Source: Scedosporium boydii
Taxonomy: Eukaryota; Ascomycota; Sordariomycetes; Microascales; Microascaceae
Direction: 5' to 3'
Length of the DNA stretch: 64,000 nt
Assembly (NCBI GenBank): GCA_002221725.1
Contig: NJFT01000017.1
Location: forward strand, 62,001 to 126,000
Position numbers and translations under genes: made by a program. A model generated the notes under the pieces. The model was given only the letters and a program-made list of their open reading frames with translations. It was not told the origin of the DNA and did not search any database. This document shows positions 28,323-58,407 of the stretch, piece after piece (positions within the stretch are counted from its first letter, which is position 1; every line of letters begins with the position of its first letter).

Positions 28323-30807
28323 ATGGAAGCTGAGATGAACATGGAACCTAGAGTCGACCCTTGTGCCGAGGGCAACACTTCCAGCCCGCAACCGTCCAAG
28401 TCACCATTGCGAACCGACGAGGCTGATATCGAAACATCAGTGCCGACCCTGACACCTGGTTCCCCAGAACCCAAAGGGCCCCTGACTCAGAAGCCCAGAT
28501 CACGTCGAGCACGTCAAGCATGCCTCGCATGCCGTCTGCGTAAGGTCCGATGCGATGTCGTGGAGAGGGCGCCGTGCGGTAACTGCAGGTGGGGCGATGT
28601 TGAGTGCATCGTGATGAAACCGCGTCGCGACAGGTAAGCAACTTTGTTCTTTTTGCCTTTACGCTGTCCCTGCCCCATTGAATCCTGGCCTCAAATCCCA
28701 ACCCTTTTGTCAATACCCAATCGAAGCCTCTGTGATGATCTCCCATGCCCGTCTTCTCTGTGCCTGAAAGATACTAAGAATCCTTGAAGCAGACGTACTA
28801 GACGCACACCGACAGCTACGGAATCCGAAACGACCACCATATCCAATTCCGCGGCATTCTTACCTCGCAATACACGAGAAGCCCTCAAATCTCCCGAGCC
28901 CCCGAACGCATCCGTTCTAAACCCAAATGCCACCTACAACCATGGCTTAGTACCGTTACCGGGATTCATCAAACCGGTAGAGGTGGACCTCGCTACAGAA
29001 GACATGGCCTTCCTCCAATCAAAGGGAGCATTGTCGCTGCCCAGCCTCAACTTCCAGAATGCGCTATTGCTATCCTTCTTCGAATTTGTATTCCCATATC
29101 TTCCGATCGTCAATATTGACGAGTTCCTGCATTGCGTTGGGCAAGGCGATGGGACAGCGGGCCAGATTAGCTTGTTGTTGTTCCAGGCCATTCTGTTTGC
29201 TGGGATCAGCCACGTAGAGATGGAGCATATATGGGAAGCGGGCTTTAGGACACGGAAATTGGCCTATAAGACTTTCTTCCAAAGAGTCCTGGTTAGTTTT
29301 CACCTTTGCCCCTTCATATTTGCCGTCCCAACCTTCTCTCTATATGCCCCAACCCGAACAGTTCGGCTTCACTGTTGATTTTCGGACTTATCAACGATGC
29401 TAACTAGCATCCATTACTTCGCAGCTGCTTTACGACTTCAACTGCGAGACTGACCGCCTCACACTCGTCCAGGTCGCACTACTCCTGACGCAGTGGTACG
29501 AGTCTCCTGACGATCACCGCAATTCCTGGTACTGGGTCGATGTGGCTGTCTCACAGGCTTTTGCGGCGGGGCTCCACCGCGACCCAAGCCTTGCCATGCC
29601 ACTCGCTCCTTCCGCAGAGCAGAAACTTCGGCGGCGCGTCTGGTGGTCATGCTTCATACGGGACAGGCACATCTCTATAGCGATGCGGCGGCCACCTAGG
29701 GTTCGGGCGGGTGACTCGAGCGTGGCGATGCTAGACGAAGCCGACTTTTGTTTGGACCAGATGCCTGATGGGACCCGCCTGGAAGTTCCACTAAAGTCGA
29801 TGTGCTCTTATATCCATGATGACCACAAGCAAGCTGTGCTGGCTAAACTCTGTGTAGCCATGGCGAGCTTGTGTCGATGCATGAAGCCGTACTTGAGAGC
29901 GCATTCCTCAATCTTTCGGGAGAATGGCGGGGATGATACGTCGGACGTCTATTTTCTTCTCAAAATCGATGATGATGATGCCTTCGCATCCTGCAGCCGG
30001 GACCTTTGGGCATGGTTTAATTCATTGCAGGACTGCTGCAGACCTCGTCGGCTGACCCCGACCGATGTCGACAGAGATGATAACGCAAGCGTGGCGCTTA
30101 ATCGAACCATGTTGCATATGCTGTACTTTGCGGCGTTGTGCAATCTTCACCGGTCCCGGTTCACTTCACTAACACGCAATCCGGATGCACCACTGCTAGA
30201 GCAGGAGATCTCCAAGACCTGCATGCAGGAGGCGGCGAAGCAGATTTCTAGCATGGCTGATGATATTAATAAGCTGAACCTGGGCCGGCATCTACCCACG
30301 ATGGGGGTTACCGTCGCGGTCGCTGCGGCCGCCATCCATCTTGACGAGGTGAAGGGGCGGATTCAAGCCGATCGGGAGGCCGCGTATAAGGGGTATTACC
30401 ACTGTCGGCAACTGATGGAGTCAATGGAGGATATCTACACCGCGGCGAAGCTGGCCAAGGACGCAATGGAAATGGAATGGAGCTTTGTCGAGCGGCGCGA
30501 ACACGGTTCCCGGCGGAAGGCTGCTGATAGACCAGGGGCTTCAGAGAAACCGACCTCTGCGTCCAGCTTGTCAGGAAGCCGCCCGATCTGTGAGAGCGCC
30601 ACGACTCCTCCAGACGGACCTGCGGAGAGAAGCTTCTATGGCGTTGACTTGTCTGGGTCGAGTGATGAGACGGATAAGGATACATATATAAATCTAGGCT
30701 TGCCAACGCCGGATAATCAAGTTTGTGAGGCTATGGACTGGGTCGATCTTCTTCAGGGAGAGGACTTAGGGTCATTTGATGATCTGATGACCCTGTCCGG
30801 AGCTTAG
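28323..30807 (+). CDS. Zn2Cys6 transcription factor with fungal-specific middle domain
   Basis: Exons 28323-28633, 28793-29291 and 29425-30807 give 730 residues. The binuclear zinc cluster is Cys67, 70, 77, 85, 88 and 95, preceded by a basic stretch. The first intron lies just after it, at phase 2. The fungal_trans middle homology region starts near FFEFVFPYLPIVNIDEF and includes SQAFAAGLHRDPS followed by LRRRVWWSCFIRDR, a hallmark of the domain. The C-terminus is acidic (GEDLGSFDDL) and could serve as activation segment. It stands directly left of a second Zn2Cys6 gene and the acyl-CoA catabolic genes, so it is a good candidate pathway regulator. The ATG at 28323 is the first in frame (the preceding GTG codon is not a start). 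Confidence 0.92.
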
Positions 30808-32333: not shown

Positions 32334-34938
32334 ATGTCAGATGTGGCAGATGATTCTGATGGTAACGAGGGGCGCAGGAAGAGAATACGACAGGCGTGTC
32401 TGAACTGCAGGTATGCTAGAACATAAACCTCGTCTTGTCATGTTTCGGTCTCAGTCTCTGTCGACCTAATGCAGCCGAGCTACGTAGGAGGAAAAAAGTA
32501 CGATGTGGCGGCGAGAAGCCGGTCTGCAATTTCTGTGATCGATTGTCACAGACGTGCATATATGCCGAAGATGGACGAAGCCACCCTCGGAACTCTGCTA
32601 CTCTCCAGAGCACACACGAAGATTCCAACACCCTCGTTGTATGTTTGTTCCAATCTTTAGGACTCATTCACTCTCGCATGCGGCATGTCTATATGTCGTC
32701 GATGCAAGGCAGTCAAATATTCTCTGGCATGCTGACCGATTACCGTTTTTAGGAAGCCTTCTCATCTAACTTCTCTGCCCTCGAGGATAGGCTGTCCAGA
32801 ATAGAGGGCGTACTTGATAGGTATGATGATAAGGACGAACAACTATAAAAAGAATCGCGTTCATTTTATGCCTACTCTCACGTCTCTCTTTCGACCCATC
32901 CTGGCCCTATCTAACTCTCATTACCTTTACTGACGCATTGAATAGGTTGGTCCCCGTGCTGTCATCTCTCACGTCTTCGCAGCCGGGACCACAGTCACTC
33001 GCCGAACCGTCCTCAGTGCAGTCAATCGTTAATAATCAACTGCAGCCACCACACCACCCGGGAAATGCAAGTGATCACGGTGCCACCCTCCCCCCGTCTC
33101 TTCCAACTGCGCCAGAGGCCACGCTGCCACCTGTTCACACTCTCCTCCTTGCCGCTGACATTTACTTCCGTTTTTTTCATAACCAACCCTACTCTCTATT
33201 TCACGAGCCGACATTTCGCCAGCGTCTTGTTGCAGGGGAGCTTCCACCGTACCTTGTCTGGGGCCTTCTCTCTTCGGCACGGCGGTATTCCACATTGCCC
33301 GATCTGCAACTGAGTGCCACTGATGATGCCACGTACTATGCAAAGAGGGCATGGGAAGCCATGAAGCTGCCATGGGACGGCGCCGTGGCGGACGAGGAGG
33401 TTGTTCACGTGATTCAGACTATAGTATTAATAGTTAGCATTGAACATCCAGGCAAGTTGTTTCTAGTCTCGGTTATCGTTTCCTTTCTCCTTTTGATCTC
33501 TTCTGCAGGTTTATATTGCCCTGTCCTACCTATATCGTCATCTTCGCCGTAGAACTTGTATCATAAACTTCTTTCGCTCCTAGCTGACCCCTCTCACTCT
33601 CTTCCTAGCTGGAAACTGCGCCTCTGCTTACATGAAACTTGGATTTGGCCTTAGACTCGCCATGTATTCCAACATGCACGTGGAACCCGAAGAGAATCTC
33701 TCTGTCATCTTACGCGAGGAGCGTAGAAGGGCCTTCTGGTGTCTCTACATGCAGGACAGACTCATCTCTCTTTCGAGAGAACGATTCTCTGTAATCCAAG
33801 ACGAGACATGCCGAGTACGGCTCCCTTGCTCGGAGGAAGCTTGGCGACAAGGCCGAGAGGAAATGGCGCCCACATTGGAGTGTTTTAGTCACGACTACTT
33901 AGAGCAGGAGGCTGTAGACTCTTGTTGCCCTCTGGCACTAATTATCGTTGTTGTGTCGGTCTTGGGTCGTGTGTCTCGTTATATACTACAGGAGAAAGGT
34001 TCATCACAGGTGAGCCCACCGTGGTCCCCTGCTTCGCCGTACACTACTATATCGTCCACACTCCTGCAACTCGAGCTCCATTTTGGGTTGAATGAGCCGG
34101 CGATGGAGAGCCTGGAGCGGAGATGCTATGCCGGTGGAGCCGTCGATGAACACCGAGCGGGGTCCTTCATATATGCCAAGGCCGTGTTTCACCTCTGCCA
34201 CTGCCTCCTCCATCACCCTTTTCTTCTCCAACAACGCCTGCAGCAGCTGAAGCAAAAGGCACCCCCAAGCTTTCTTCGAAACGTATGGGATACATGCCGA
34301 ACCCATGCAAAAAACCTCATGGATGTGAAAGATATGAGGAATCATAATATTACCATCCTCACCTCTTTATACGGTTACTGCACCATGGTCGCTGGTACTA
34401 TCCATATCTTGTCCATGAGTGATGAGAGGGCAGAGACTCGCCAGGCGGGCTTGACTCATTACAAGGCGGCATTGCAATTCTTGCACGAGTTGTCCTGTTA
34501 TTGGAAGCATGCAGCCCTAATGGTAAACACATCAGTACACGAACTTGGACGCAGATTCTGCTTATTTTCTAAACGTACACTAACGGAATATCATCGCATC
34601 AGGCCAGCCGACTGGAGCGATTCTACAAGCTGAGGGAGGATCGACGCCTGATCCTCGATCCTTACAAGCAAAATACCGGTACTGGACAGTCACCTGCCGA
34701 CTTGAAGACCTTGTGGCAGAGTGTGGACTACACAGAGCTCTCGACGCCCACACGGCCGGGTAGTCCGTCCACTGGGAAGACGACTGACCTGGTGCCCATA
34801 TTCTTCGAATCACCGAGTCGGTTCTTTGAGTTTTCTGACTTCAATGTCATCGGAAATATGGCCGATACTTACGGGGGATTTTCTCTCATCCAGGACTCGC
34901 TGGTTTCCGGGACGCTACCACCCAGTGAGGCAACATAA
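32334..34938 (+). CDS. Second Zn2Cys6 transcription factor
   Basis: Exons 32334-32410, 32488-32638, 32753-32820, 32946-33451, 33609-34522 and 34603-34938 give 683 residues. The first intron splits the zinc cluster codon-exactly and yields Cys22, 25, 32, 39, 42 and 49. A short linker and helical segment (AFSSNFSALEDRLSRIEGVLD) suggests a dimerising coiled coil. The middle homology domain includes ERRRAFWCLYMQDR. The fourth intron begins with GC (33452, context CAG/GCAAGT) and ends in CTAG. It joins SIEHP to AGNCASAYMKLGF, the expected family sequence. Codirectional with the first regulator and about 1.5 kb from it. The next gene, acyl-CoA synthetase, is convergent. The target genes are inferred from context only. 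Confidence 0.9.
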
Positions 34939-35541: not shown

Positions 35542-37611
35542 TCACAACTTAGCCGCAAGGGGGCCATTAGTCGCTTTCAACAGCTTTTCGCCAGCCTCAC
35601 GCAAAAGGTCCTTCCGGATCTTGCCCGTCCCAGTAGTAGAGTACGCAGGCACTGGCTCACCGGGACCAACCCAGATGGCATGCTGTGGGGCCTTGTGCGA
35701 CCCCAGCTCCTCCTTCACCCAGGCCTGCAGCGTATGCAAGGACGGCTTCTCGTGCCCGTCACGGAGCTGTAGGAAGGCAGAGACCGCCTCGCCATATTTT
35801 TCATCTTTGAGGCCGACGACGCTGGCCTGGCTTATTGCCGAGTGCCGCAGGAGCCGTTCTTCAATTTCAAGGGGATAGATATTTTCGCCGCCTAGATTTG
35901 CGTCGACTGTGTTAGAGGTATGTCGCCTATAAAAGAAGTTGGTAGACCGAAGAGCTATTGAGGAGGGCGAACGAAGGATAACTTACCGCGGATGATAATA
36001 TCCTTGATACGGCCTGTGATGCGGCAGTACCCCTGCTCGTCGATAGTAGCTTCGTCACCAGTATGCATCCACACCACGCCGTCATCATCTCGAATCATAA
36101 CCTCGGCCGTCTTCTCGGGATTCTTAAAATAGCCTTGCTGTAGGAGATAGCCGGAGACACAGAGTTCGCCGCGCACGCCACGAGGTACGATGCGGTTGTC
36201 AACGTCGACCACCTTGGCCGTCACGTGGGGAAGGACCTGGCCCACGGTCTCTAGTTTCCGCTCACGAGAGTCGGTAACTGCGGTCATAAAACTGGCTGGC
36301 GACGTTTCAGTCATGCCTATGCGGGTGCGAAGGATATTAGACAAAAAGCCAACTTAATCTCTAATTGTGAAAAGCTTGGGGAGTGGTAAAATTGTTACCG
36401 TAAGTGATGGCCGCGTGTTTATATCCAAGCCTTCTCTCAATCTCGTCGAGGAGAGCGGGCGGGATCTTGGCGCCTGCGGCAATGCCTTTGACCAGGGTGT
36501 TGATCTTAACGCCAGTTCGGTCGAGCTCCTTCATAATAGCAGTGAACATGGTGGGGACGCCATGCAGCACAGTGCACCGCTCTCGTACAAGCATATCGAC
36601 CACTTGGGTGGCGTCGAAGTCGCGGCAAGCGAATCCGATGGTCGCACCATGGGTAAAGGCCGCCAGTAAGCCTGCAACAAGACCGAAGCAGTGAAATAGA
36701 GGGGGGGCGCAGCAGATTATGTCTTTATCTGTCAATTGAAGATATTCGCCAATGATGAAGCCGTTGTTTGTGATGTTGCTGCCACGGAAAGTAACGAAAA
36801 GTCAGCACCATGCCTATATGAAAAGGTCGTAGGAACTATTTCACAACGTTTCGACATACAAGTGGCTCAGCATTGCGGCTTTAGGGGCCCCAGTTGTCCC
36901 ACTGGTGAATTGAAAGTTGACAAGGGAGTGGACATCGACGGACTCCTCGAGCTGCTCCAAGGATGCTGGCGATACCTCTCGGCCAACAGCTAGGACATCG
37001 CCCCAGGTCGGTTCGGCACGCGTTGGTAGCTCGTCCCAGCGCATCAACACGACATGCCTGAGGCTACCCCTGTTGCGTCGTATATGTTGCAGGATGGGGA
37101 GCGTTGGTCGCCGGTTAACAATATCTGAAACAAAGAAGATGCTTGGCTCTGTACATTGACGTCAGCAATAGCGATTTTTGAGATTGTGTTCAGCGATGAA
37201 CTTGGGTTACTACGAACCGGTATGTTCGAGTGCACGCAAACATTCTGCGAGCGTGTAAGTCTTATTTAGAATGACAAGTACCGCGCCTATCCGCCCAGCC
37301 GCGAAGAACAGATCAATGAATCTTTCGTCATCGCCAGAAAAGACGGCTACGCGATCACCCTTGAGCACACCAAGGGCCATGAGGCCGCGGGCGAGCTCCT
37401 TGGAGCGACGGCTCACATCTCGGAAGGACAGGCGAGCGTTCGTCCAGCTAGTGAGAATGGCATCCTTGTTGCCGTATTTCTCTGCCTGTTGGTCAACTAG
37501 CTGACCTAATGTAAGGTGGAAAAGGTCCGGCTTAGAAGAGCCGCGGACAATCGAGAGTTGCTGGTTGAGAGGGGCCTGCGCCTGGAGCGCGGACGGCAAG
37601 GGGGATGACAT
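35542..37611 (-). CDS. Peroxisomal acyl-CoA synthetase (AMP-binding), AtuH-like role
   Basis: Exons 37611-37218, 37148-36860, 36778-36399, 36316-35987 and 35891-35542 give 580 residues. It should activate a carboxylic acid to its CoA thioester with ATP. Seen: the AMP-binding P-loop FTSGTTGAPKAAMLSH, with the second intron following immediately to give SHFNITNNG; PPLFHCFGLVAG; TYGMTETSP rebuilt across a splice; the hinge part TGDEA...[21 protein letters not shown]; and the catalytic Lys in TGTGKIRKD. The protein ends AAKL, a canonical PTS1, so peroxisomal import is likely. It resembles medium-chain and 4-coumarate:CoA ligase-like enzymes; the acid cannot be told from sequence. It is divergent from the SKL-ending hydratase gene, with an 840-bp shared promoter region. 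Confidence 0.93.
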
Positions 37612-38451: not shown

Positions 38452-39497
38452 ATGGCTACCAAAATCACTCCGCCTTCTACTAAATACTGCATCATCTCGT
38501 TTCCATCTCCGGGCATACTCCTTGTTCTAATCAACCGGCCGAGAAGCCTCAATGCCCTGAACACCGAGGCAAGTTATGAACTAGACGCCGTGTTCCGGTG
38601 GTTCGATGAGGAGCCAAGCTGTCGCGTGGCAGTATTGAGTGGCGTCGGGAAGGCGTTCTGCACGGGAGCCGATTTGAAAGGTATGTGTGTGGATGCGTAC
38701 ATTTCGTTCATTGCCTTTGTCGCCTCTGTCATAACGTTATAGCCTTGAGTTTCCTTTTTATTTTCCTATCACCACAATTGGCAAGCAAGAGCATTAGACA
38801 TCGCAATATATGAGCTGGGCCTGCGATTTGAAGAACGGAAGCCTGTTGCATTTCCCCGTTCTACTTTCCATCAGGGAAGGAGTTTTAAATCTAACACACC
38901 CTCTCTTCAGAATGGATGGCCAACAACAAATCCGGCATCCGCATGACCTTCCCCCCGGCCGGCTTCGGCGGCATCTCCCTCCGCCAGGGCAAGAAGCCCA
39001 TCATTGCCGCTGTTAACGGCCCTGCGTACGGTGGCGGATGTGAGATGGTTGTCAACTGCGACCTCGTCATCGCCGACGCCGACGCCACTTTCTCCCTTCC
39101 CGAGGTGCGCCGCGGCGTGACGCCTTTCGGGGGTGCGCTACCCCGACTCGTACGGACGGTGGGGAGGCAGCGGGCGACAGATATGGCGCTGACCGGGAGA
39201 ATCATCTCGGCCGAGGAATTCAAGGATTGGGGTGCGTGTAATTGCGTGGTGCCACGCGGGCAGAGCGTGGATAAGGCTCTAGAATATGCGCGTAAGATTG
39301 CAGGAAATAGCCCTGATGCAGTAATTATTACGCGAGAAGGGTTGAAGATGGGGTGGGAGGCTCTAGGAGTGTCTGATGGAAACCGGCTGTTTGTCGACGG
39401 GTGGAGCAATCGGATCTACGATAGCCCCAACATGCAGGAGGGGTTGGATGCATTCACAGAGAAGAGGGAGCCACGGTGGAAGGATAGCAAGCTATAG
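38452..39497 (+). CDS. Peroxisomal enoyl-CoA hydratase/isomerase (crotonase family)
   Basis: Exons 38452-38680 and 38911-39497 give 271 residues. Crotonase-fold enzyme expected to hydrate 2-enoyl-CoA in beta-oxidation. Seen: the first oxyanion-hole segment GKAFCTGADLK, continued across the splice as EWMANN; the second segment NGPAYGGGCEM; and both catalytic glutamates of the hydratase family, in GGCE and LPEV. It ends DSKL, a perfect PTS1, so the enzyme should be peroxisomal. The single intron is long for this window (230 bp, GTATGT...TTCAG). I found no extra exon in it. It is divergent from the acyl-CoA synthetase and convergent with the acyl-CoA dehydrogenase gene. Confidence 0.92.
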
Positions 39498-39862
39498 AAT
39501 TACACAGGAGTGAGGTCGGCCGTGGCGACACTAGAGAGTGTGTATGTAGGCTACCATCAACGTTCGGCCACAGAAGGTCAAAGAATCGACCGCCCGCAAA
39601 CGGGTGTGCCGACACGAACATGAGGACGCGTGGATCTCGCGAATTATTGCCAAAGCGTGAATAAATATCAAGACGGCCGTGTTGCTGTTCGGGGAAGCAT
39701 ATGAACTGATAGCTACATACGCCTCCTCCGACATAACTTGGAACCTGAATGGTAATGTAGTCACTGCATGCTGATGAAAACTCTCGACGCATTCCAATTC
39801 TACACTTGCATCAATCTATTTAACACGCATTCTGTACATGCAACTTGTCTAAGTCTGTCTTC
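39498..39862. other. Convergent 3' spacer
   Basis: Spacer between the ends of the hydratase and acyl-CoA dehydrogenase genes. Nothing recognised. Confidence 0.5.
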
Positions 39863-41688
39863 CTATAGCTTCGCCGAAGCGAGTGCTTTAGCCTCCTGGT
39901 TGAGAGAAAAGTCGGTTAGAATCTCCTCACTCCCGCCCCCAACCACCATGACACGCAAGTCACGACTGATCTGCTCGATCCTAGCACCCTTCCCACTCTT
40001 GGAGTACCCAAGTCCTCCCATGACCTGTTGCGCTTCCCGGTTTACCCGCTCGAGGGCCTGACAGGCGAGCACCTTGCAATTCGCAATCAGCCCACCAACG
40101 CCAGCGGGCTCGGATGCCGGATCCCGACGTTTAGCCTGGCCTAGCATGTGCACGAGGTACTCGAGGTAAGCATGTGCAGAGTCAATGGAGCGACCGGCCA
40201 TGGCGAATTTAGCACGGATGATCTGGTTGTCTATCAACAGCTTGCCGAACGTCTCACGTTTGACGGCGTGGAGGTAGGCGTCCTCAACGCAAACGCGGGC
40301 AAGGCGGAGGGCGGTACAAGCGAGCCAGGTCCGTTCGTGGTTAAAGTCTATCGAAAAGTGAAATGGATAGGATTCAATTAGCGCGTGGCTTTTCTCCAAG
40401 ATACAAGGTTCAGAAAGCATGTGTCAAAGTTGTAAGCGCCCATGAAACTTGAAGGGGCATGAGAAGTGCATGGGCAGCTAATTTGGTCGGATCAGAGAGG
40501 GACTTACTTGACATAATAATTCGAAATCCCTGATTCTTCTCCCCAATCAGGTTCTCCGCAGGTACCTCAACATCGTCAAATTCAATATAAGTGGACCCTA
40601 TAAGCATCTAATTAGCAAGGCCAAATCATTCTTGGTACCTGCTCGCTCTAATCAGTAGACAAGCTGGGGGGAGGGGGAGAGAAGACAACGCTAGAAAAAA
40701 AAAAAAAAAAAAAAAAATTCAGTTATCCAAGCGGCGAGTGTGGACCTACCACTAGCAGAAACGCCAGAGTTATACAGCCTCTTCCGCTTCACACCTGGTA
40801 CAGTGAGTGGAATGATCAGCACCGAGATACCGCCCTGACCTGGTCCCCCTGTCCTCACCGCGGCAGTGCAATAGTCTGCCCACAGCCCGTTGGTGATCCA
40901 CTTCTTCGCCCCGTTGACGATATACTTGTTACCCTTCTGCGTCGCTGTGGTTGTAATGCCAGCCACGTCTGACCCGGCATCCGGCTCCGTCACTGCAAGG
41001 CAGAAGCGAAGCTCCCCGTTCAAAATCCCCGGAAGATAGTTGTTTTTCTGCTCGGCTGTGCCGAACCGCACGATGGGCGGGGCACCGATAACGTTGCCGC
41101 AAGCGAGGCCGAAGACGACACCTAGGTACCCGCAGCGGGCGATCTCGTCCATGAACACGAGATCGTGAAATTCGTCCCATTCTTGTGGGGGGATGTCGCC
41201 GGGTAGGCGGAGGTCACCGAGGTAGTCTACCGCCATGGGAAAGAGGGAGGCGGCCATAAAACCGCTGCGGGCGAAATGGCGGATAGCCTAAGGGTTCGGT
41301 ACCGAGAAGATTGTTAATACACGTATATGAGGGATATGACTGTTCATTTGAGAACAAGATGTGTTTGGGCGGTATGTTGTATTACGTTCGTGTTTCATGC
41401 GGCCGCCGCCGCTTGGGGACACGCCGTACAGGGGAAGACGGGGGCATCTTGCGGTGGTCAGGGGGTGGGGTAGCATGCATGTGGGCAGCATAGGGGGATA
41501 TTGTTACGCACCTCAAGCGGCACTGCGCCATTCTTCTCCCACTCTTCACAGTTCGGTATGATGTGTTCATCAACATACTCCCTAACAGCTCGGCGGAGGC
41601 GATGGTGACTTTCATTGTAGTAGGGACTCCCACCACGAGTGTACCAGAGAGGTTCGGAGAAGGGCGCAGACGAAAATGATTGGGCCAT
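39863..41688 (-). CDS. Peroxisomal acyl-CoA dehydrogenase, AtuD-like role
   Basis: Exons 41688-41512, 41287-40750, 40597-40508 and 40347-39863 give 429 residues. FAD enzyme expected to introduce the alpha-beta double bond in acyl-CoA. Seen: family signature CLAVTEPDAGSDVAGI, NGAKKWITNG, the segment IEFDDVEVPAENLIG, FNHERTWLA rebuilt at a splice, QVMGGLGYSKSG, and the catalytic Glu in VGGGSEEILTDF. It ends SAKL, a PTS1. The use of a dehydrogenase rather than an acyl-CoA oxidase in a peroxisome is known in filamentous fungi. Open frame continues upstream of 41688 but without an ATG, so I start at MAQSF. The second intron carries a 23-base A run on the + strand. In bacterial atu clusters AtuD dehydrogenates citronellyl-CoA. 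Confidence 0.92.
40695..40717. repeat. A23 homopolymer inside an acyl-CoA dehydrogenase intron
   Basis: Twenty-three A on the + strand (T on the coding strand) in the 152-bp intron 40749-40598. As a pyrimidine run it could help splicing. It is probably length-variable. Confidence 0.9.
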
Positions 41689-42875: not shown

Positions 42876-44905
42876 CTATGTCACATACCTGAATAAGGGT
42901 GACTTGTCTCCCATTTCCACCAGTTCCGCTGCAAGAGAAGACTCGTTGTTAGAATCCGTGGAAATTCCTATAAAAAGAACAAAAAAAAAGTAGAGAAGAG
43001 TGGACCGCGATGCATCCTTTACGGCGCACCTGCACATACCTTCAGAATACCTAGCCAACACTTCGTCCTCCGACATCCGGGCCCGCTTCTTGTTGATAGA
43101 AAGGGTGGCAAAACGAAGAATGAATATAGACACCATTCCCGCCACTAGGATGCCCAACGAGAAACCGTAGCCTAGCCAGTAGTGTGGCGCCTGCTTCGCT
43201 AGGAAGATGTTGGAGCCAACAGCACCGCCTAGGTTCCCCAGAGTCATGAGCAGGGCCATGCCAATGGCTCGTTTAAACGAAGGGGCAAGGTTGTTTCCAA
43301 TCCAGGTGATGACGCCGATCACAGCGGGATAGAGGCCTCCCGGGATGAAGAAGAGGAAGAAATACGTGAGCCCGGGCAGGCGTGGGTGGGGGATGGAGAG
43401 AAGACCAATAAAGCCGATAAGGGAAATGCTGAAGGCGATTGTAATAAATTGCCACCGATTCTGGCGCTTGTCGGCTAGGAAGCCCAGGTAATAGGTGAGG
43501 CAGGCGCCGACAAAATAGACGGGTACGGTTAGAAGCTGTGCCTGGGCGGCGGTGTAGCCTAGTTCGTGAATAATCGTAGGGGCCGCGAAGCTGAACCCAT
43601 AGATGCAAACGCTGTGTCCACGATGAATTCGTTAGCCAAATTTTCGTCATGCGCCTTTTGTCTCCCAAATCTCTTCAATGGGCAGAGGCCCATCACTCTA
43701 TGGTTGTATTAGGTGTCGATAGGGATTAAAAGGAGATGGATTTCCGCTCACCTGTTTCCCCAGAACATCACGACTCCCAGATAAATTTTCCAGTCGAGGA
43801 GCGCTTCCCACAAGTACTTCCACTTAAAGGACTCTTTAGTTCCTACACGGCCAGCCGCCGTGCCCGAGTCATGCGCCAAGCGATAGTTGACGATGTCCTT
43901 CTCGGCTTGCGTGAGGAACTTGGCCGCATCGGGAGAATCTGGTAGTACCCAAGGGACGCTCAAGCCAATGAGAACCGTAAATATTCCTTCAAGGATAAAA
44001 ATCCATCGCCAGCCATTCAGTCCGCCAATGCCTTCCATGTGTTGGATCCCGAAAGCTAACAAGCCTGAAAAGGCTCCGGCCAATGAGGCGGCCGAGAAGA
44101 ATAGGGCAAGTCGTGTCTGCACCTCCCAGCGGCAATACCATGTAGTGAGGAGGTAAGTAGCGGCTGGGAAGAAGCCGGCCTCGGCCAAACCGAGCATTAC
44201 GCGGGTAGCAATTAGACCGCCGTAGGATTTCACGATGCCCTGAAGGGTGAGAACCTAGATAGAGAAGAGGGGCACAGGTCAGAGATAACCCAGAGATGAA
44301 AGGAGAAGACGAAGAGACGCAATGGCCAAAATGATATGTCGGGCTCTTCACGGGAGTTGGGTTGGGGTTGGAGAGTGAACATACCGTGCCCCAACATGTT
44401 ACCAAAACCATGATCCAGATGGACGGCCGTATAAGTTTAAGTACAATGTTGCTCGGTACCTCGAATAAGGCATAAGGAAAGAAGAGAACGGTTAGAGCCA
44501 TGTTGTATTGAGCCCCTGTAAGGTTCAGGTCCGTATTCATGCCGGCCACTTTGGCATTGCCGATGTTGGACCTATCCATGAAGGACAGGACATACAGAGC
44601 CGTCAACAACGGCAGGAGGTGCCAGTCTATCCGGCGTCGAATTCTTCCAATTTCCGCGTCATCGATTTGTAGAGCCTAGTAAGTCAATATTGAGAATCAC
44701 AAAACATGTCTGCCAGCGAAAAGTCTAAAGGGTCCGTTCAACGAGGCGGGGGAATGGTGCGCTACTTGGGACGTTCAATTTTGGCAGGGAAGAATAGGGA
44801 GGGAGGGAGTTGTACATTTGTAGACTGCTCTGCTGAAGAGACTTCGCGTCTCTCCATATGAGAGACGCTCTCGGCCAATTCTGAAGCCTGTTGCTTCTCG
44901 CTCAT
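42876..44905 (-). CDS. MFS transporter, anion:cation symporter family (Tna1/Dal5-like)
   Basis: Exons 44905-44816, 44675-44385, 44254-43752, 43611-43040 and 42928-42876 give 502 residues with about 12 predicted membrane segments. Characteristic parts: RRRIDWHLLPLLTALYVLSFMDRSNIGNAKVAGM in two blocks, LFFPYALFEVPSNI, GLAEAGFFPAATYLLTTWY, GWRWIFILEG, WVLPDSPDAAKFLTQAEK and the end MGDKSPLFRYV. This fungal ACS family imports organic anions such as nicotinate, allantoate and other carboxylates. Placed inside the acyl-CoA gene cluster, it is a good candidate importer of the acid substrate, which is inference. The last intron (111 bp) is a multiple of three without a stop, but splicing gives the conserved SEAELVEMGDKS sequence. 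The short first exon encodes the cytosolic N-terminus and is less certain. Confidence 0.92.
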
Positions 44906-45992: not shown

Positions 45993-47291
45993 TCACAACT
46001 TTCCCCAGCCGGCTTGAGTCTTATCATTTACGACTCGAATCACAGCCCGTCCATCACTCAAGCACTTGCGCCCCGTACTCACCACTCGCGCAGCCCATCG
46101 GATCTCCTGCCACCCATCCGCGTCGGGTTTCCCCATTCGCCAGAAGTCTGTGTGGACCGCGTCACCCGGCTTGACGGGACCAGCAAACTTGGCCTGAAAC
46201 TCGCGGAAGTTCGCCGCGTCGCTTCGACCCAGCTTCCGGAGCAGGTCGTGGGCGATACGATTATAAGCGTATACACCATGCATGATGATGCCACCGTAGC
46301 CCATTTCGATACCAGGCTCCGGGGTTGCATGGAGGGGATTGTAATCCCCATTAAGTCTGTGTTTATATCTTACGTGTTAGCTTAGCCCGGTACTACCATA
46401 ATAGTTGACTGCAGAAAACCCAGTCGAAGAGAACGATTAGGCAAATAGATCGTGGATGTGCATGCGTAGTGCGTCTGCTATGAATAACAGGGATACCTTA
46501 CCGGTACAAATGAGCACTCTCCCTGGCAATCTGCATCTTTAGTGTACCATCGGGCGGCCGAGTCTCTGGTGTCGTGAGGGACGGCTCACTTGTTCCACGC
46601 GGTCCACCCCAGCCGCCCTGTCCGACGTAGAATAGGCTGCCGATATTGCGGGCATACACCTCGCCAGACACAGCATCTACCAGGGCGTCCTCGGATTTGA
46701 CTACCGTGCCAGCCTTACCCTTGTCGTACACACCCAGGACCGTTGTTCGAAACTCAAAGTCGCGGCCGGCAGAAGAGACGGGTAGCGTTTTGAGCACCTG
46801 GATTAGCCGTCGACCATCGACCAGACGGCTAGGATCTAGTTTAGGTACCCCCGGAATCGATACGGACGGCTGAGTCGAATAGAAGTCGATCACATCTTGG
46901 TTGTCTAGCTTGAATACTAAAGAATGAGCTCCGTTTTAGCAGACATACTGTAGAAAGTCCCTCCCGCCGGACCGTAAATATGCCCGAGTACTCACTTAAA
47001 GCTAGCGGGAAGGTGGGAAAGGGGGCAAAGCGCTCATTCAATTCCTAGACATTGAGATGTTAATCTGGAGATGTACCCGAAAAACAACACGGACGAGAAC
47101 CTTGTTTCGTTATCCAACAGTTGAGAGAGAACAGAAACAAGACTGTAAGGTATTAAATTGGGGTGACTCACGTAGATAAACTGGGGCTCGTCAACCTTAC
47201 ATCCGATGCTGAGGTTGAAGAGGAGTGCATCCCGCTTTAACCAGGACACCTTCCTCGGTGGGAATTGAAACCCCACGCCTGGATCAGCCAT
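45993..47291 (-). CDS. MaoC-type (R)-specific enoyl-CoA hydratase, double hotdog
   Basis: Exons 47291-47172, 47044-46996, 46916-46502 and 46356-45993 give 315 residues. It resembles the hydratase-2 part of the peroxisomal multifunctional enzyme: an N-terminal hotdog (VSWLKRDALLFNLSIGCKVDEPQFIYELNERF in two exons, FPTFPLAL) and a C-terminal hotdog carrying the hydratase-2 motif YRLNGDYNPLHATPE, rebuilt exactly across the last splice, with catalytic Asp and His. GPVKPGDAV follows. It should hydrate trans-2-enoyl-CoA to (R)-3-hydroxyacyl-CoA. It ends WGKL; GKL is only a weak PTS1 variant. In the multifunctional enzyme the dehydrogenase domains are fused; here the hydratase stands alone. One exon is only 49 bp long. 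Confidence 0.9.
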
Positions 47292-48146: not shown

Positions 48147-50335
48147 TCAAAGTCTGGTATGAAGGCCCGTGGTACCTGGCAGATTTAAATACACCGCCGA
48201 TAAAGCCAGTTGTGCATACGACTTTGCTTGCCTTTGAGATGGAGTTCCATGGTTAGCGTTTATGCATTTCAAGGCAGTCGTTGAACGACACAAACCGACA
48301 TACCTGTCTAGTCGGAGGCTTGAAAGGCCTCCGCCGCCGAGGGACTTCGTCAAGACGAAATTGACGCTGTGTACACCTGGCACCTCAAACCGCGTCACCG
48401 TGCCACCCGGCGCGATAAAGTGCCTAAAAGCGGAGAAGATTACTTCAGGAGTAAGTTGCTCAAGCAGATATGGGTAATAAGATGGATCCTTTGCGACAAT
48501 GGCAATGTTTGCCGTATCCCCTTTGTCACCCGATCTGCCGAAAGCGATATCGTAGAGCTTGATACGTGCTGGATCCATGCCTGCAAAACTGCTGCCTTGC
48601 AACGGCAGTGGTGATGACGTGGATTCGTCAGCCTGGACCCTAGTTTGCGCTGGCTCGACCGGCTGGCAGCCCTCCACACGTAATGGAACTGCGATCGGTG
48701 CGGCGTCCAATCCCACGTGCACGACGGGTACCACACGCTCGCGGCGCACTAGAACGCTGCTCGCAACGAAATTGGGACTACTCTTAGGTCGGCCCGAGGT
48801 AAGGAGACATATTCCAGGGCAGCTGTTTGTAAGGAACGGCGCGGTCTCCTTACTCAGGATGTCGAGCACACCCCGGTGCATATGGCGCGCCGCCACACGT
48901 AGAACAACTTCGCGCCGCTCGTTACCGTACACCGCGGTGGGGGAGAGACTAAACTCGGCGCCAATAATATGCACCTCGCTGTCATCTGCGGCGATTGGTG
49001 GGACGTAACCCTTGTAAACGGCAGCCGCCAGCGCGTTTGTTCGGTCGAGGATGGCTTTACCTAGGACCTTGGCTTTGCTCACAGCCTCCTCACCACAGAC
49101 AAGAATATCAGCGGCTATGCGATAGCCTCGCTGCTCGACGCTGGTGCACTTAAGCCATGGCGTGGGAACCTTACCACGGGCGCCACGAACAGAAACGACG
49201 TCAGATGCCGCTTGCTCGAGTCGCACCTGGGTCATGTCGAGAACCACATCAGGAAGAACGTAATTTTCCGGGTCTAACACTTCGTATAGCATTTGCTCAC
49301 ACACGCTGCGACACGTCACCACTCCGCCGGTCTTGTCGGGCTTGGAGATGGTGAAGCCATTATCCTCAAAAAAGGTGAGGATCGGGTAGCCCATATTCGC
49401 CCACCCGCCGTGGGGACTAAAGGCTGACGATTTCCAGTCCGTGTAATTGCCGCCCGTGGCTTGGGCGCCGCACTCGACGATGTGCCCGGCCAGGGAGGCG
49501 CTCGCGATGCTGTCGAGGTTGACAACGTCGTTGGTGTACTGCCAGCCAAACTCGAACGCTAGAGGGCCAACTACAAGAGCACTGTCGACGCATCTACCAG
49601 TGACCACGATATCGGCTCCCTGACGTAGTGCTTCCGTGATAGGCTCCGCGCCGATGTAGGCGTTAATGCTGAGGGGTTTCTTCTCGCTTCGACCATCTGG
49701 AATACCGTCCTCCACAACTCCAGCGCCGCTCAACGGATCAAATCCATGGAAGGCACCACTCCCTGCCAGGACATCAACTTGTGGGTACAAGTCATCACCA
49801 GACACAGAAGCCACCTTCAGCTTCCGGCTCACCTTGAGCTTGTTGAGGCGGGCCACAATTGCATCTTTCAGACCGACAGGGTTCAGGCCACCCGCGTTCG
49901 TCACGATCTTTAGTTTCTTTTCAAGAATTAGATCGAGGTTGGGGACGAGGACTAAATCAAGAAACTCGGAAATGTAGCCTCCATTAGATGTAGACTTCTT
50001 CGTCTTGGTAGCCGAGGTAGACCGGGATGATCGAGCAAGGAGGCCCATGGTTAGTTCTGTGAGATGTGGGACAGTTAGTGAAGTGGTAGTGTACAACGGT
50101 GTGATTATCGGCTCATATGTCAACCACAAGACGAAGCGAAGGGGAAGCCACCTGCGAGATAGTCGGCAACTAGATAGTCGAGTTGAGGCCCGTCTGGCTC
50201 GAGAAATTGTTTAACGGCGGACGGGGAATCTCCCCAAAAGGCACTACCATCGTGTGTCAATTATCTGCACAATAAACAAGGTGTACATGCAGTTGGGAGA
50301 ACAAACCTATAGCACCCGATTCTTATTTGCTTCAT
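48147..50335 (-). CDS. atuA-like: AtuA family protein (DUF1446, acyclic terpene utilisation)
   Basis: Exons 50335-50307, 50243-50152, 50056-48304 and 48231-48147 give 652 residues. The start was reconstructed over two small exons: MKQIRIG, then AFWGDSPSAVKQFLE, LDYLVADYLAELTMGLLAR, matching the DUF1446 N-terminus. Further conserved parts are KIVTNAGGLNPVG, ADIVVTGRCVDSALVVGPLAFEFGW, LAGHIVECGAQATGGNYTDW, GYPILTF and, in the C-terminal DUF4387-like part, LYDIAFGRSGDKGDTANIAI. AtuA is required for growth on acyclic terpenes in Pseudomonas, but its reaction is unsettled. Its gene here is flanked by the MaoC and the carboxylase alpha genes, the same company as in bacteria. It ends HTRL, not a standard PTS1. 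The last splice (GTATGT...CAAAG) gives DRQAKSYAQLAL. Confidence 0.93.
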
Positions 50336-51100: not shown

Positions 51101-53580
51101 CTACGTAAACGTACACAACGGTGCACCCTCGTTGACGGCCTCACCTTCTGCAATGCTTGTCTCGAATAACCCATCCATACCGGCAGAGATAGCTATTTCC
51201 ATCTTCATACTTTCAATCACCATGACCACCTCGCCCGCCTTCACTTTATCGCCGGTTTTTTTCAATACCTGCAGGACCTTGCAAGGCATCGGCGCGTTAA
51301 TTACCGCGTCGCTAGCCTTCCCGCCGCTCGTAGTGGTCGGTCGCTGGCTCTCAAAGTACGACAGCGGTGAGTAACAATGGAATTCCATAGGGCCGCCAAG
51401 CACCGGGAAATGGCAAAGCAAGCGCAATGCGCTTCCCGTGTCCTGTTCAATCGCTACAGATAGCGGATCTCCCGTCGCCACGTACGCGAGAACCTTGCTC
51501 TTGTTGATCGATGCCTCAATCCGGCCGATATTCCACGGTACGGACTCGGACCACCCAACCACGTCGATAACTTTGCTCTGCGCCTTGTGTACATATACTG
51601 CACATGTCAAGGACTTTTCCTCTAATGCGCCGCTGCGGATAGCTACGCTCAGCATGTTGTAGGCATGGGTGGCGTCCAGAAGGCCAGATTCGTCGCTGGT
51701 TGCGTCGTCCGCCTTTGCCTCTGGCTTCGGACCTAATTCAGGCACTGGCGCGATCTGCACAACCGCCTTATTCGTCTCTCCGCCATCGAATCCCCATATG
51801 CAGACCTGAGAGTTCATGCTCGTGTCCTGCTTCGCATCGTAGACGGCAACAATATCGCATAACTGGTTCACCCTGTCGAACCTCTGGTTTCGGAACCCGC
51901 GACGAATGCTTCCGAAAATAGGGCGGGGGCCCCCAGCGGCCACCTCCTTTCGCTCCCGGGAATTCCGTAAAAATAAGCCCGGGATTATGCTTAGGAGATT
52001 CAGCGGCAATCCTAGGCCGGAAGAATATGGATTTTGCAGGAGGTCGTCGAGATTCGACTGGATAAACGATGTCGTGTAATCGGGGCGGCGGAAAGCAGAG
52101 TGCAGGAGGCACGCCTGTAGGAAGAGTTGGTTGGTGGTGACACCTAGACAGGCTGTGTCCGCGAGAACTCTCGCCATCTGCTCGATTGCTGCGGCGCGTG
52201 TTGGCGCCCATACGACAATCTTTGCGATCATGGAGTCGAAATAGATCGAGACTTTGGCGCCGCTGGAAATGGCCGTTTCGTAGCGTATACGTTGTGAGCC
52301 GACCGGTGGCAGCGGTGGCGCCCATAAGCGAACCAGGCCGTGCTGGGGAGCAAAGTTGCGGGCTGGGTCCTCGGCGCATAGCCGGCATTCGATAGCGTGG
52401 CCGTTCTGCGGGACCGAGTCGAGTTGCTGGAGGCTGGCCAGTTTGCCGCCAGATGCGACGTAAAGCTGCAGGGCCACGATATCAAGTCCCGTGCACTCCT
52501 CAGTAATAGGATGTTCAACCTGCAGTCGCGCGTTTACTTCGAGGAAGTAGAACTGGCCTGTTGCAATGTCAAGAATGAACTCGACTGTCCCAGCACCCTC
52601 GTACCGCAGCAATCTACCAATGCGCGTTGCGACGGCACATATGGCCTCCCGCTGACTGCAGTTAAGCCAAGGACACGGGCTCTCCTCGATCACCTTCTGG
52701 TGCCGTCGCTGGACGGAACAATCACGTTCCCACAACGATATGACATTGCCGTACTGGTCTCCCAAAATCTGTACTTCGACGTGCTTGCCCGCTTCAATGT
52801 ATTTTTCTAGAATACAAACGTTCAAACCAAACGACCGTTGGGCTTCAGATTGGGCGCGCTCAAACTCAGCCTTGAGTGCCGACCGATCGTGCACGATGCG
52901 CAGCCCACGGCCACCGCCGCCGGCCGATGCCTTGATGATGACGGGGAAGCCGATACGTTCGGATTCTCTCTCCAAGTCACTGAGTTGTATCCCCTGCGAT
53001 GACGACCCGATATACCCAGGAATCAAGGGCACGCTTGGCTCGTGCTCGCTGAGGTATTGTTTAGCTTCGCGCTTATCGCCGAGGGTGGTGATGGCAGACG
53101 AATTCGGGCCGATGAAGATGATGCCGGCTTTGCGCACCTCATCGGCGAACTGGGCGTTTTCGCTTAGGTAGCCGTAGCCAGGGTGGATTGCATCGGCTCC
53201 CGTCTGGAGAGCAACCTGGATGAGAAGTTTGATATTCAAGAACGGATTACCACCGGGCTGGTCCACAGAGCCCAGGTTGATGGCATCGTCTGCGTCATGC
53301 ACATGTCTTGACGTTGCATCTCTGTTGGGGGTAAAAAGAGGGTAGTGGTTAGCGAGTGGGATGAAGATGATTAATACGTGCGAGGTGAAAAGTCTGTGGT
53401 TTCTTACTCTTCAACGTATATAGCAATGCTTTTGACCTGTAGCTTACGGCAGGTGGAAATAACGCGACAGGCGATTTCTCCCCGGTTGGCGATCAAGATG
53501 CGGTTAATTCGTCTCGTCCCATTTTCCTGGAGAGGCATCTGGGCCACCCATAACGGCTCTTGTTCGGATATGACGACCAT
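51101..53580 (-). CDS. Biotin-dependent acyl-CoA carboxylase alpha subunit, AtuF/MccA-like
   Basis: Exons 53580-53408 and 53321-51101 (phase 2) give 797 residues. It carries biotin carboxylase and biotin carrier domains in one chain. Seen: [14 protein letters not shown] (about residues 28-41), [10 protein letters not shown], the ATP-grasp glycine loop [11 protein letters not shown], and [22 protein letters not shown]. The C-terminal carrier has the biotinyl Lys at residue 764 within ESMKMEI, instead of the more common EAMKM. The likely substrate is a beta-methyl enoyl-CoA such as geranyl-CoA or 3-methylcrotonyl-CoA, fixed by the partner beta subunit encoded 2.4 kb away. The N-terminus holds several Glu and is not a clear mitochondrial presequence. 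The C-terminus (CTFT) is no PTS1. Confidence 0.93.
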
Positions 53581-54167: not shown

Positions 54168-55025
54168 ATGGCGAGCCCGAAATTGGAATGGAGCTTGTTT
54201 CATCACCAAAACGACATCGATATTTTCCGCTCTGGCACGAATCTCAAGATTTTGCTCCGTCGACCCCGGAACGGGAATGCACTCACGACCGACATGGTAA
54301 CCCAAATTACTGATTGCTTCCGCTCCGTGGCCCAAGACCACACCATCACACGTATCGTCATCGCGGCCGAGGGCCGTTTCTTCTGTACCGGGATGGATTT
54401 GGGCAAGTCAAGTACAGCCGTCAGTAAAGGAGGCGACGCTGCATCCAACGAATATGAAAAGTTTGTCAATCTATTCCAGGCTATCCAGGACGCACCTCAG
54501 GTGACCATCGCTTGCATCAACGGCCCTTGCTACGCTGGAGGCGTAGGGCTCGCCTTCTCATGCGACGTGCGCCTCGCGATCGCCTCGGCCACCGCCAGCC
54601 TCAGCGAAGTGAAACTGGGACTCTGTCCGGCCATCATATCCAAGTATCTAGCTCGAGAGTGGGGGCTGGCCTTTACACGCGAGGCTATACTCTCAGGGCG
54701 GGTGATATCTGTGGCCGAGCTTCGAGACCTTGGGACGGTACACGGCTTAGCTGCGGACCTGGCAGGGCTGGATAATCTTCTCGAGTCGTACCTCATCAAT
54801 TTACGCTCTTGTGCACCACGCGCGTCGGCCATGTGTAAGGATGTAATGCGAGCGGCTGCTGGTGTTCGGGGTCATGAAGAGCAGGACAAGGTCATTCGCC
54901 AAGTGTTTGAAACCATGATGGCTCCAGACTCGGAATCAGTCATTGGAGTGCGCAACTTCCAGTCAGGAAAGAAACGGACAGATTGGGATGCGTTGGCACA
55001 TCTGCAAGGAGCAGCTAAACTCTAA
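54168..55025 (+). CDS. Methylglutaconyl/isohexenylglutaconyl-type CoA hydratase, AtuE-like, PTS1
   Basis: Intronless, 285 residues, crotonase fold. The first oxyanion segment is GRFFCTGMDLG. The second reads GPCYAGGVGLAFSCD, followed by LSEVKLGLCPAIISKYLAREWG. The GGVGLA-x-CD form without Glu at the first catalytic site, plus SEVxLGLxPAxIS, is what I associate with bacterial LiuC/AtuE hydratases, which hydrate the glutaconyl-type product of methylcrotonyl- or geranyl-CoA carboxylase. The second Glu (SEV) is kept. The protein ends AAKL, a PTS1. It sits between the carboxylase alpha and beta genes, which fits a step right after carboxylation. Choice between methyl- and isohexenyl-glutaconyl-CoA as substrate is inference. 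Confidence 0.9.
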   Translation: MASPKLEWSLFHHQNDIDIFRSGTNLKILLRRPRNGNALTTDMVTQITDCFRSVAQDHTITRIVIAAEGRFFCTGMDLGKSSTAVSKGGDAASNEYEKFVNLFQAIQDAPQVTIACINGPCYAGGVGLAFSCDVRLAIASATASLSEVKLGLCPAIISKYLAREWGLAFTREAILSGRVISVAELRDLGTVHGLAADLAGLDNLLESYLINLRSCAPRASAMCKDVMRAAAGVRGHEEQDKVIRQVFETMMAPDSESVIGVRNFQSGKKRTDWDALAHLQGAAKL

Positions 55026-55981: not shown

Positions 55982-58407
55982 ATGGCCGCTTGCCTTTCCT
56001 ACCCCGTCGGTGTGGCCAAACTGAGCCTACGGCAGCCCATCTTCGACGACAACCGCAAAGCTTGGGGACAGGTCCTGGAACGGTTCAACAATGCCCTCGA
56101 ACAGGTCTGTTCCGAGGGCACCTCGGCATCGCAGCAGCGACACCAGTCTCGAGGCCAGCTTCTCGGTATGGCTTTCTCTCCCTCTCCCACACAATAGGCG
56201 TTTTCCCATTCTCGCCTCCTTTACGCCCACCAATCGGCGTTTTCTAACTTTCTGCATTAGCCAGGGACCGTGTAGCGTTGCTGCTCGACCACGATTCCCC
56301 TTTCATGGAGCTCGCTCAGTTCGCCGGCTTTGGGCTCGACTCGTCTCCCTGTGCTAGTCTTGTAGCTGGTATTGGGAAAGTTAGGTATGTGCAATCAAGG
56401 CTTCTCGAAAGCAGAATGCCAATTTGGTCCCGACTTCGCTTATGTCGAGGCCGGGAGACAAGGGGGACTTGACCAACTTGTATTGACTAAATGCCTACGA
56501 CGGAAGTGGCGTGGCCTGTATGATTATATCTCACATTCCATCCATTAAGGGAGGGGCTTGGAACGAGTATACCAGTAAGTCAAGACCCTTTCTCGACGTA
56601 CACGCACTAGGCCGTTTCCCTCGGTCTCTTTCTGTTCCTCCCGTGCCTTCGCCGATGATCCTATAAAGCGTGCGATGCTGATTTCTAATCTCACTACAAC
56701 CAGTCTTGAAGCACAACCGCGTGACGGAGATCGCAACGGAAAATGGCCTGCCAATTATTGGTCTTGTACAAGCAGTGAGTGTTGCCGTAATCCAACCTAG
56801 AATACGTCGTGTTTGCCTTGTGGCTCGAAAAGCCTCTTTGGCTCATCCGAAGCTATTCATGAGCTTTAAAATTTTTTTTCTAGGGGCTCAGCTTCTCACC
56901 TTCCCTCGACTCAATAGGCAGGTGCTTATCTCCCGCAACAATTCCGCGTCTTCCATCGCGCAGGCCAAATGTTCCGAGACCTTGCGCGCCGGAGCGCTGC
57001 CGGCCAGTTCTCGTGCAGTGTCGTCTTCGGCTCTTCGACCGCTGGAGGGGCGTACCTCCCCGGATTATCCGACTACACCATCTTGGTGCAAAATCAAGCA
57101 CAGGTTTTTCTTGGGGGTCCTCCCCTGGTAAAGATGGCCACGGGCGAGGTTATAGATGCCGAGACTCTAGGAGGGGCCAAGATGCATTCCACCGTTACGG
57201 GGTTGGCGGACCAGATCGCTGTAGATGAGTATGGTTTTATGCATTGCTCCTTTCCGACATTCATGTACCTTCTTCGCTGTGTGAAACAACCCCCATCTGA
57301 CTATAGGCGTTTTCTTGCAGGTTTGACGCAATCCGCAAAGCCCGCGAATGGGTCAAATCCATCCAAGTCCCCTTCCAGCTGGCACGGCGGCCCATGGGAG
57401 AGCCCCTAGCCCCACGCTATCCTATGGACGACTTGCTATCGCTGGTTAACCCGGATATCCGTAAGCCCTTTGATATGACCGAGGTGGTGCTGAGGCTAGT
57501 GGACGACTCGCGGATGGCCCTTTTTAAACCGACATACGGCAAGAATTTACTGACGGCTTGGGCCGAGATCCACGGTATGTTTCTCACATGAGCATCCCAC
57601 AATATATTTCAATTCATTTGTCGGCGATGTCAGCGGAACAAGACTTCCTTGAAGACTTGGAACCAGTCTTTGACCACGAAAAACTGACGTAATGTAAAAC
57701 CGCTCACTAGGACACCCAATTGGCATCATTGGCAATCAAACGCCGGTGATCCACGCCGACGAGGCATGCAAAGGTGCCCAGTTCATCAGATTGTGCAATC
57801 AGAGGTACTATCGACTCCCTCTCTATACCATGATATGCTCTCTTGTCAAGGGCTGACCAGACGAACTAGATGTATCCCTATAATCTATCTTCACAACGTG
57901 ACCGGATTCATGGTTGGCTCTGATGCGGAACGGCAAGGCATTATTAAGAAAGGGGCTCAGTTCGTTGCCGCCGTTAGCTGCTCAAAGGTTCCTCAGATAT
58001 CCGTCATTCTTGGGTCTTCTTACGGAGCCGGCAATTATGCCATGTGCGGTCGTGCCTACCAGCCCCGATTCCTATTCGCATGGCCCTCGAGCCGCTGCAG
58101 CGTCATGGGACCCGACCAGCTTGCGGGTGTCATGGAAATCGTGCAGTCTGGAAGTAGAGCCAGGAAGAATAATGCCAATAAGAGCGACGCTGCTACTGCC
58201 GTGCCTAAAGAGCCATCTAACAGCCACGAGAAGCAGAGAGAGATGGTTGAACGGGAAAGCGAGTCGTATTACACGAGTGCCAACTTGCTAGACGATGGGA
58301 TTATAGACCCACGGGACACGCGCGACATCCTAGGAATGTGTCTAGACGTGGTGACTATTTCGCCAGTAAAAGGCGCCGAAAGCCACCAGGGCCTGGCACG
58401 GCTCTAG
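55982..58407 (+). CDS. Acyl-CoA carboxylase beta (carboxyltransferase) subunit, AtuC/MccB-like
   Basis: Eight exons: 55982-56165, 56261-56384, 56507-56574, 56704-56774, 56918-57228, 57321-57574, 57711-57804 and 57870-58407; 547 residues. Signature parts: [36 protein letters not shown], the carboxybiotin site [55 protein letters not shown] and the C-terminal [19 protein letters not shown] followed by [11 protein letters not shown]. It transfers CO2 from biotin of the alpha subunit to the gamma methyl of a beta-methyl enoyl-CoA. The sequence around the first site differs from the mitochondrial MCC beta form I remember (IAVVMGS). It ends LARL, a PTS1 variant, which suggests peroxisomal location. 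Splice choices were fixed by phase and by conserved sequence; the small third and fourth exons are least certain. Confidence 0.92.

Follow-up and report, generated by a model that had tools for sequence, protein, structure and literature searches.

Which acids do the eleven adjacent genes of a cluster in Scedosporium boydii act on, and in which compartment would they do so? The cluster lies in the window analysed here, a 64,000-nucleotide stretch of contig NJFT01000017.1 (C17:62001-126000; genome of 42.9 Mb in 442 contigs), and a preliminary description had presented it as a candidate peroxisomal degradation cluster for acyclic isoprenoids, resembling the Pseudomonas atu genes. Our analysis confirms the observation itself and partly supports its interpretation: the cluster is probably a regulated peroxisomal catabolic unit for 3-methyl-branched carboxylic acids, most likely acyclic isoprenoid ones. 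Isoprenoid acids are our best guess at the substrate.

The eleven gene models were built by hand from reading frames and splice sites and are predictions, the splice sites being taken from the sequence alone. None contains an internal stop, introns are GT-AG throughout save one GC-AG intron in TF2, and the expected domains were found in 10/10 proteins scanned with Pfam (TF1 was outside that scan), so that the reported run of genes is real. It begins with the start codon of TF1 at 28323 and ends at 58407 with the stop codon of CTB, which encodes the carboxyltransferase. In window positions, the features are:

28323-30807, plus strand: TF1, Zn2Cys6-type regulator (exons 28323-28633, 28793-29291 and 29425-30807; Cys6 zinc cluster read from the translation)
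32334-34633, plus strand: TF2, Zn2Cys6 regulator with five exons (Pfam Zn_clus and Fungal_trans)
33452-33608, plus strand: fourth intron of TF2, the GC-AG intron (gene model)
35542-37611, minus strand: ACS, acyl-CoA synthetase (model and Pfam; AKL end at 35545-35553)
38452-39497, plus strand: ECH1, SidH-like crotonase (model and Pfam; SKL end at 39486-39494)
39863-41688, minus strand: ACAD, acyl-CoA dehydrogenase (model and Pfam; AKL end at 39866-39874)
42876-44905, minus strand: MFS transporter, probable organic-anion importer (Pfam MFS_1)
45993-47291, minus strand: HYD2, hydratase-2, MaoC (Pfam MaoC_dehydratas and MFE-2_hydrat-2_N; GKL end at 45996-46004)
48147-50335, minus strand: AtuA with a fused AtuA_ferredoxin domain, proposed acetate-releasing lyase (Pfam, fold match; TRL end at 48150-48158)
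51101-53580, minus strand: BCA, biotin carboxylase and biotin carrier, alpha subunit (model and Pfam; no peroxisomal signal)
54168-55025, plus strand: ECH2, AtuE-like crotonase, single exon (model and Pfam; AKL end at 55014-55022)
55982-58407, plus strand: CTB, carboxyltransferase beta subunit, eight exons (model and Pfam; ARL end at 58396-58404)
56942-56974, plus strand: CTB pocket stretch (Ala codon at 56960-56962)

The compartment is indicated by the C-termini. Five of the eight enzymes carry a strict peroxisomal targeting signal type 1 (PTS1, C-terminal [SAC][KRH][LM]): ACS, ACAD and ECH2 end in AKL, ECH1 in SKL and CTB in ARL. The composition of the eleven proteins gives a chance rate of 0.0029 per protein, at which five or more such ends among eight enzymes have a binomial P of about 1.1e-11, and the peroxisomal aim of the preliminary description is upheld at the level of predicted signals. 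A Histoplasma-derived PTS1 reads [A/S/P/H/C][K/R][L/I], with AKL, SKL and ARL dominating (excerpt of PMC13343957), and a broader consensus quoted in an excerpt of PMC12316961 takes in TRL and ARI, not GKL.

The end of CTB is part of a wider pattern. Among 120 listed CTB relatives, from 7999 scored, all entries that name an organism name a fungus, and 116 end in AR[ILM] (ARI 60, ARM 32, ARL 24); the other four end in GRK, ARF, QCK and LRD, one each, three of them being of odd length or marked partial. As a control, we used 80 bacterial carboxyltransferase (CT) relatives, the best 80 of 582 stretches confirmed in one genome scan, mostly from actinobacteria and 47-51% identical. These end in FRM (76), FRL (3) or FRP (1), without a PTS1, and the fungus's own mitochondrial-type methylcrotonyl-CoA carboxylase (MCC) beta subunit, on contig C104, ends in FRM. 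The FR and AR end states differ by a single residue change at position -3. Plain inheritance of the AR[ILM] end was rejected, since 80/80 bacterial relatives end in FR[MLP]. BCA itself ends in TFT, and a PTS1 was found on 0/120 listed BCA relatives. In the relatives listed, the signal thus sits on beta and in no case on alpha, so that alpha may ride in on beta.

Which acyl-CoA would this carboxylase accept? According to an excerpt of PMC4673880, MCC beta subunits have Phe191 and a three-residue insertion, and geranyl-CoA carboxylase (GCC) beta subunits have Gly162 and no insertion; a further GCC criterion, relative to the propionyl-CoA carboxylase beta subunit, is an extended N-terminal helix of about 30 residues. 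We set Phe191 in DRDHFGR by counting along human MCC beta, and took the GCC Gly as the residue after FVE in 5ikl by reading of the alignment. The CTB pocket reads VFHRAGQMF, without the insertion and without the Phe, as in the Pseudomonas GCC beta subunit (5ikl; PMC4673880), from which CTB differs by Ala in place of Gly162 and by its ARL end. No mitochondrial leader was seen on CTB, its start being read by eye.

Moreover, the genome encodes other carboxylases. Besides this cluster, CT domains occur on C104, C121 and C23, and biotin carboxylases (BC) on C67, C56, C23, C166 and C121 (leaders and gene names on C121, C56 and C166 were assigned by eye). On C104 lie an MCC beta gene with PDREHFGR and a gene resembling isovaleryl-CoA dehydrogenase, both with leaders of mitochondrial type; C67 has a gene similar to MCC alpha, its leader reading MRSIARNQLPFHPLRRRLLSTA. 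The leaders were judged by eye. This mitochondrial-type MCC has the two-subunit architecture of BCA/CTB, and over the aligned parts its beta subunit is 43% identical to CTB and its alpha subunit 41% to BCA; however, it carries leaders of mitochondrial type as well as the insertion and the Phe, and BCA/CTB have none of these. The possibility, raised in the preliminary description, that BCA and CTB are simply the mitochondrial leucine enzyme was rejected, as a separate mitochondrial-type MCC is present on C104 and C67. A second, peroxisomal pathway for leucine or isovalerate, in which isovalerate would be activated and then follow the ordinary methylcrotonyl-CoA route, would also need a ligase, a dehydrogenase, a carboxylase and a hydratase, and the overall carboxylase score is closer to MCC and AccD1 than to GCC. 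We consider it quite unlikely, in view of the separate isovaleryl-CoA dehydrogenase and MCC set, the pocket of CTB, the absence of an HMG-CoA lyase gene among the ten Pfam-scanned proteins, and the hydratase ECH2, which scores closer to AtuE than to the human leucine-pathway enzyme.

The best solved relative of ECH2 is 4zu2, annotated as a putative isohexenylglutaconyl-CoA hydratase; it scores 103.7 bits, the next relative 87.7 and human methylglutaconyl-CoA hydratase (1hzd) 58.6. Counterparts of AtuA, AtuC, AtuD, AtuE and AtuF and of the CoA ligase are all present in the cluster, by Pfam domains and, for ECH2 and AtuE, by score, and the atu-like gene set described earlier stands. The mapping of individual roles is supported for ECH2; ACS and ACAD matched no specific NCBIfam family above its cutoff, and their roles are assigned at the level of domains. 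AtuH is dispensable in Pseudomonas, its role there being itself doubtful (excerpt of PMC3667196), so that ACS is placed by position and domain. To call the set complete was too strong: neither counterparts of the alcohol/aldehyde dehydrogenases AtuB and AtuG, for which the rest of the genome was not searched, nor an HMG-CoA-lyase-type protein were found among the ten Pfam-scanned proteins. The solved relatives of ACAD are general acyl-CoA dehydrogenases, and relatives about 50% identical occur on C187, C97 and C44 of the same genome, the one on C44 ending in AKL; acyl-CoA dehydrogenase relatives at L134 (C97) and L136 (C8) are seemingly fused to a cytochrome-b5-like N-terminal part, as judged by reading. 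HYD2 is of the MFE-2 hydratase-2 type by Pfam, and the MFS protein has sub-cutoff NCBIfam matches to organic-anion permease models.

The two crotonase-fold enzymes had both been counted in the atu-like cluster; the closest solved relative of ECH1 is the mevalonyl-CoA hydratase SidH (7oeq; 272 bits, next 152), which by name handles a 3-methyl-branched acyl-CoA and has another gene neighbourhood than ECH1. Could the cluster then be biosynthetic, using SidI/SidH-like chemistry to build the branched acyl side chain of a natural product? Fungal siderophore synthesis does have peroxisomal ligase/hydratase pairs (excerpt of PMC3709128). However, a synthase, a transferase and a tailoring enzyme are all absent from the ten Pfam-scanned proteins, the importer-type MFS protein, the carboxylase and AtuA suit breakdown, the same catabolic gene kinds recur in bacterial loci, and another SidH-like gene exists on C40, which makes this explanation improbable. 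This second SidH-like crotonase (L138, C40:201001-203000) has a C-terminus, KREPRWKDSKL, identical to that of ECH1.

What could AtuA contribute? Its fold matches subunit A of citramalate lyase (9erq/9evf, an identity taken from the PDB titles alone), which suggests a concrete, testable reaction for the protein, the release of acetate from a tertiary 3-hydroxy acid. Citramalate lyase subunits A and B are only 16-18% identical to AtuA; subunit B (9evf_B) was matched at E 0.071 and probability 0.97, the range of the match not being printed, and AtuA has its AtuA_ferredoxin domain fused. Among 120 listed AtuA relatives, 57 end in a strict PTS1 (AKL 21, SKL 20), and the end [SACP][KRH][LMI] is found in 52 of the 74 listed relatives whose model reaches the last exon. 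In early-diverging fungi, algae and amoebae (P0289-P0360), many AtuA relatives end in SKL or AKL, and a peroxisomal location of AtuA may date far back among eukaryotes. The same genome has a third AtuA gene, a more distant one, on C94 (L020-L021, C94:33001-53000), beside a CoA-transferase-like gene, as judged by reading.

The cluster would then work as follows. The MFS protein would bring the acid in, ACS would convert it to its CoA ester and ACAD would yield the 3-methyl-2-enoyl-CoA. As the branch blocks ordinary beta-oxidation, BCA and CTB would carboxylate the gamma-methyl group, BCA entering the peroxisome bound to the beta subunit. ECH2 would hydrate the substituted glutaconyl-CoA, AtuA would split the resulting tertiary 3-hydroxy acid into acetate and a 3-oxoacyl-CoA, and the latter would be the substrate of a general thiolase of the peroxisome, with HYD2 and ECH1 acting in later beta-oxidation turns. 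TF1 and TF2 may co-regulate these genes. A peroxisomal biotin-dependent acyl-CoA carboxylase would, if true, add an unexpected activity to the metabolism of peroxisomes; the PTS1 on beta and its absence from alpha make piggyback import directly testable, and the scheme would explain how fungi pass methyl branches that halt beta-oxidation, with a bearing on growth on plant terpenes. A bolder version, in which fungi have a full peroxisomal gamma-carboxylation of isoprenoid acids with a piggyback-imported carboxylase, and AtuA is an acetate-releasing 3-hydroxy-3-alkylglutaryl-CoA lyase in fungi and in bacterial AtuA-carboxylase operons alike, we hold tentatively, at somewhat less than even confidence.

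The Pseudomonas atu/liu system (atuABCDEFGH and liuE; excerpt of PMC4097962) shares with the cluster the roles of AtuA, AtuC, AtuD, AtuE, AtuF and ligase and the proposed chemistry, in which the gamma-methyl group is carboxylated, the product hydrated and acetate released. The fungal cluster differs by its peroxisomal signals, fungal regulators and importer, by the lack of AtuB and AtuG counterparts and of a LiuE-type lyase among the ten scanned proteins, and by a carboxylase that is not a GCC by overall score. The same peroxisomal gamma-carboxylation might alternatively serve other 3-methyl-branched acids (phytol- or polyprenyl-derived, or natural-product side chains) and not monoterpene or sesquiterpene acids. 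The evidence does not fix the chain length, a small pocket residue merely lifts the MCC block, and neither ACS nor ACAD matches a specific family above its cutoff; nevertheless, the nearest solved relative of ECH2 points to C10-type intermediates, and we regard this alternative as unlikely, though worth keeping in view.

Several observations weigh against the isoprenoid-acid route in peroxisomes. HYD2 and AtuA, with GKL and TRL, fall outside the strict PTS1 motif, and three entries from Aspergillus (P0205, P0222 and P0238, about 1300 aa) join CT to BC and lack the AR[ILM] end, being either merged models or genuine fusions. CTB has Ala at the Gly162 position, where 105 of the 120 listed relatives have Gly, 12 have Ala and three have Thr, and where the fungus's own C23 CT and 80/80 bacterial relatives have Gly. 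Among solved proteins, CTB scores 468 bits with AccD1, 455 with human MCC and 421 with GCC. In a tree, the fungal CT rows lie on one side of a branch (97/97), with the C23 CT among them (100/100), and MCC forms one group with the C104 protein (100/99); the fungal clade stands apart from the bacterial, MCC and GCC rows, PfGCC grouping on a long branch together with MCC (99/93). No NCBIfam model exceeded its cutoff for the cluster proteins, the gamma-carboxygeranoyl-CoA hydratase model ranking tenth for ECH2 (92.6 against a cutoff of 426). For AtuA, the match to 9erq has an i-Evalue of just 0.026 in its best single domain, and the lyase step in Pseudomonas is assigned to LiuE rather than to AtuA (excerpt of PMC4097962). 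By sequence the carboxylase is GCC-like in its pocket only and, because Ala replaces the GCC Gly, we do not file it as a geranyl-CoA carboxylase.

Is the arrangement found elsewhere? The bacterial sample was chosen by two peptide patterns, one being PPLVKMAT, where the MCC sequences seen have PPLVKAAT instead. Near CT (same strand, within 9 kb), the 80 bacterial loci (L027-L106) carry relatives of BCA in 79, ACAD in 74, AtuA in 72 and ACS in 44, a crotonase on either strand in 57, and AtuA, BCA and ACAD all together in 70; as the length of several loci is below 20 kb, gene absences are upper limits. These actinobacterial loci thus hold AtuA, BCA, CT and ACAD together as the fungal cluster does, but differ in the FR[MLP] end. 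The fungal CT clade is not nested within the sampled bacteria, and the tree therefore offers no evidence of recent transfer from them.

Among the matches listed, the closest named CTB relatives are from Fusarium nematophilum (80%) and Ilyonectria destructans (79%). Proximity in other fungi was judged by eye from the locus tags in entry names, with no denominator. CT and BC tags lie at most three steps apart in thirteen named species: Fusarium torreyae, F. sarcochroum, Exophiala bonariae, E. spinifera, E. xenobiotica, Rhinocladiella mackenziei, Cladophialophora psammophila, C. chaetospira, Capronia epimyces, Penicillium sp. IBT 16267x, P. citrinum, Cercospora kikuchii (tags in hundreds) and Elasticomyces elasticus. 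In F. torreyae (010687 AtuA, 010688 BC, 010690 CT) and F. sarcochroum (1133 AtuA, 1132 BC, 1130 CT), one tag lies between BC and CT, at the position where ECH2 sits in the window; F. nematophilum has 000781 (AtuA) and 000784 (CT). The carboxylase family is widespread among ascomycetes, this locus being one instance of a common system. As to the claim that such a fungal set is little described, no description was found in the literature searches made. Grosmannia clavigera reportedly uses monoterpenes via beta-oxidation genes, many of them in one genomic region, and the excerpt of PMC4368105 that reports this makes no mention of a carboxylase.

A second AtuA-BC-CT trio lies on C23 (L017, C23:1-10000), at the contig end, the rest of its locus being off that contig. 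Its proteins are 53%, 52% and 56% identical, respectively, to their cluster counterparts over the aligned parts, its CT ending in SRI and its AtuA in ARL. That the eleven genes are unrelated neighbours, brought together by chance and forming no single pathway, would suit their alternating strands; the PTS1 statistics, the AtuA, BC and CT tags within three numbers of each other in F. torreyae and F. sarcochroum, the recurrence of the same gene kinds in bacterial loci and the trio on C23 render it highly improbable.

Some neighbouring genes were read from their translations. On the minus strand at 14673-18499 lie an Old-yellow-enzyme-like gene (14673-15824), whose model shifts frame close to its end and may be mis-modelled, and a pyruvate-decarboxylase-like gene (16712-18460). 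Just beyond the cluster end are a nitrilase-like gene (59067-60371, minus strand) and, further on, a cytochrome P450-like gene (62173-63736, minus strand).

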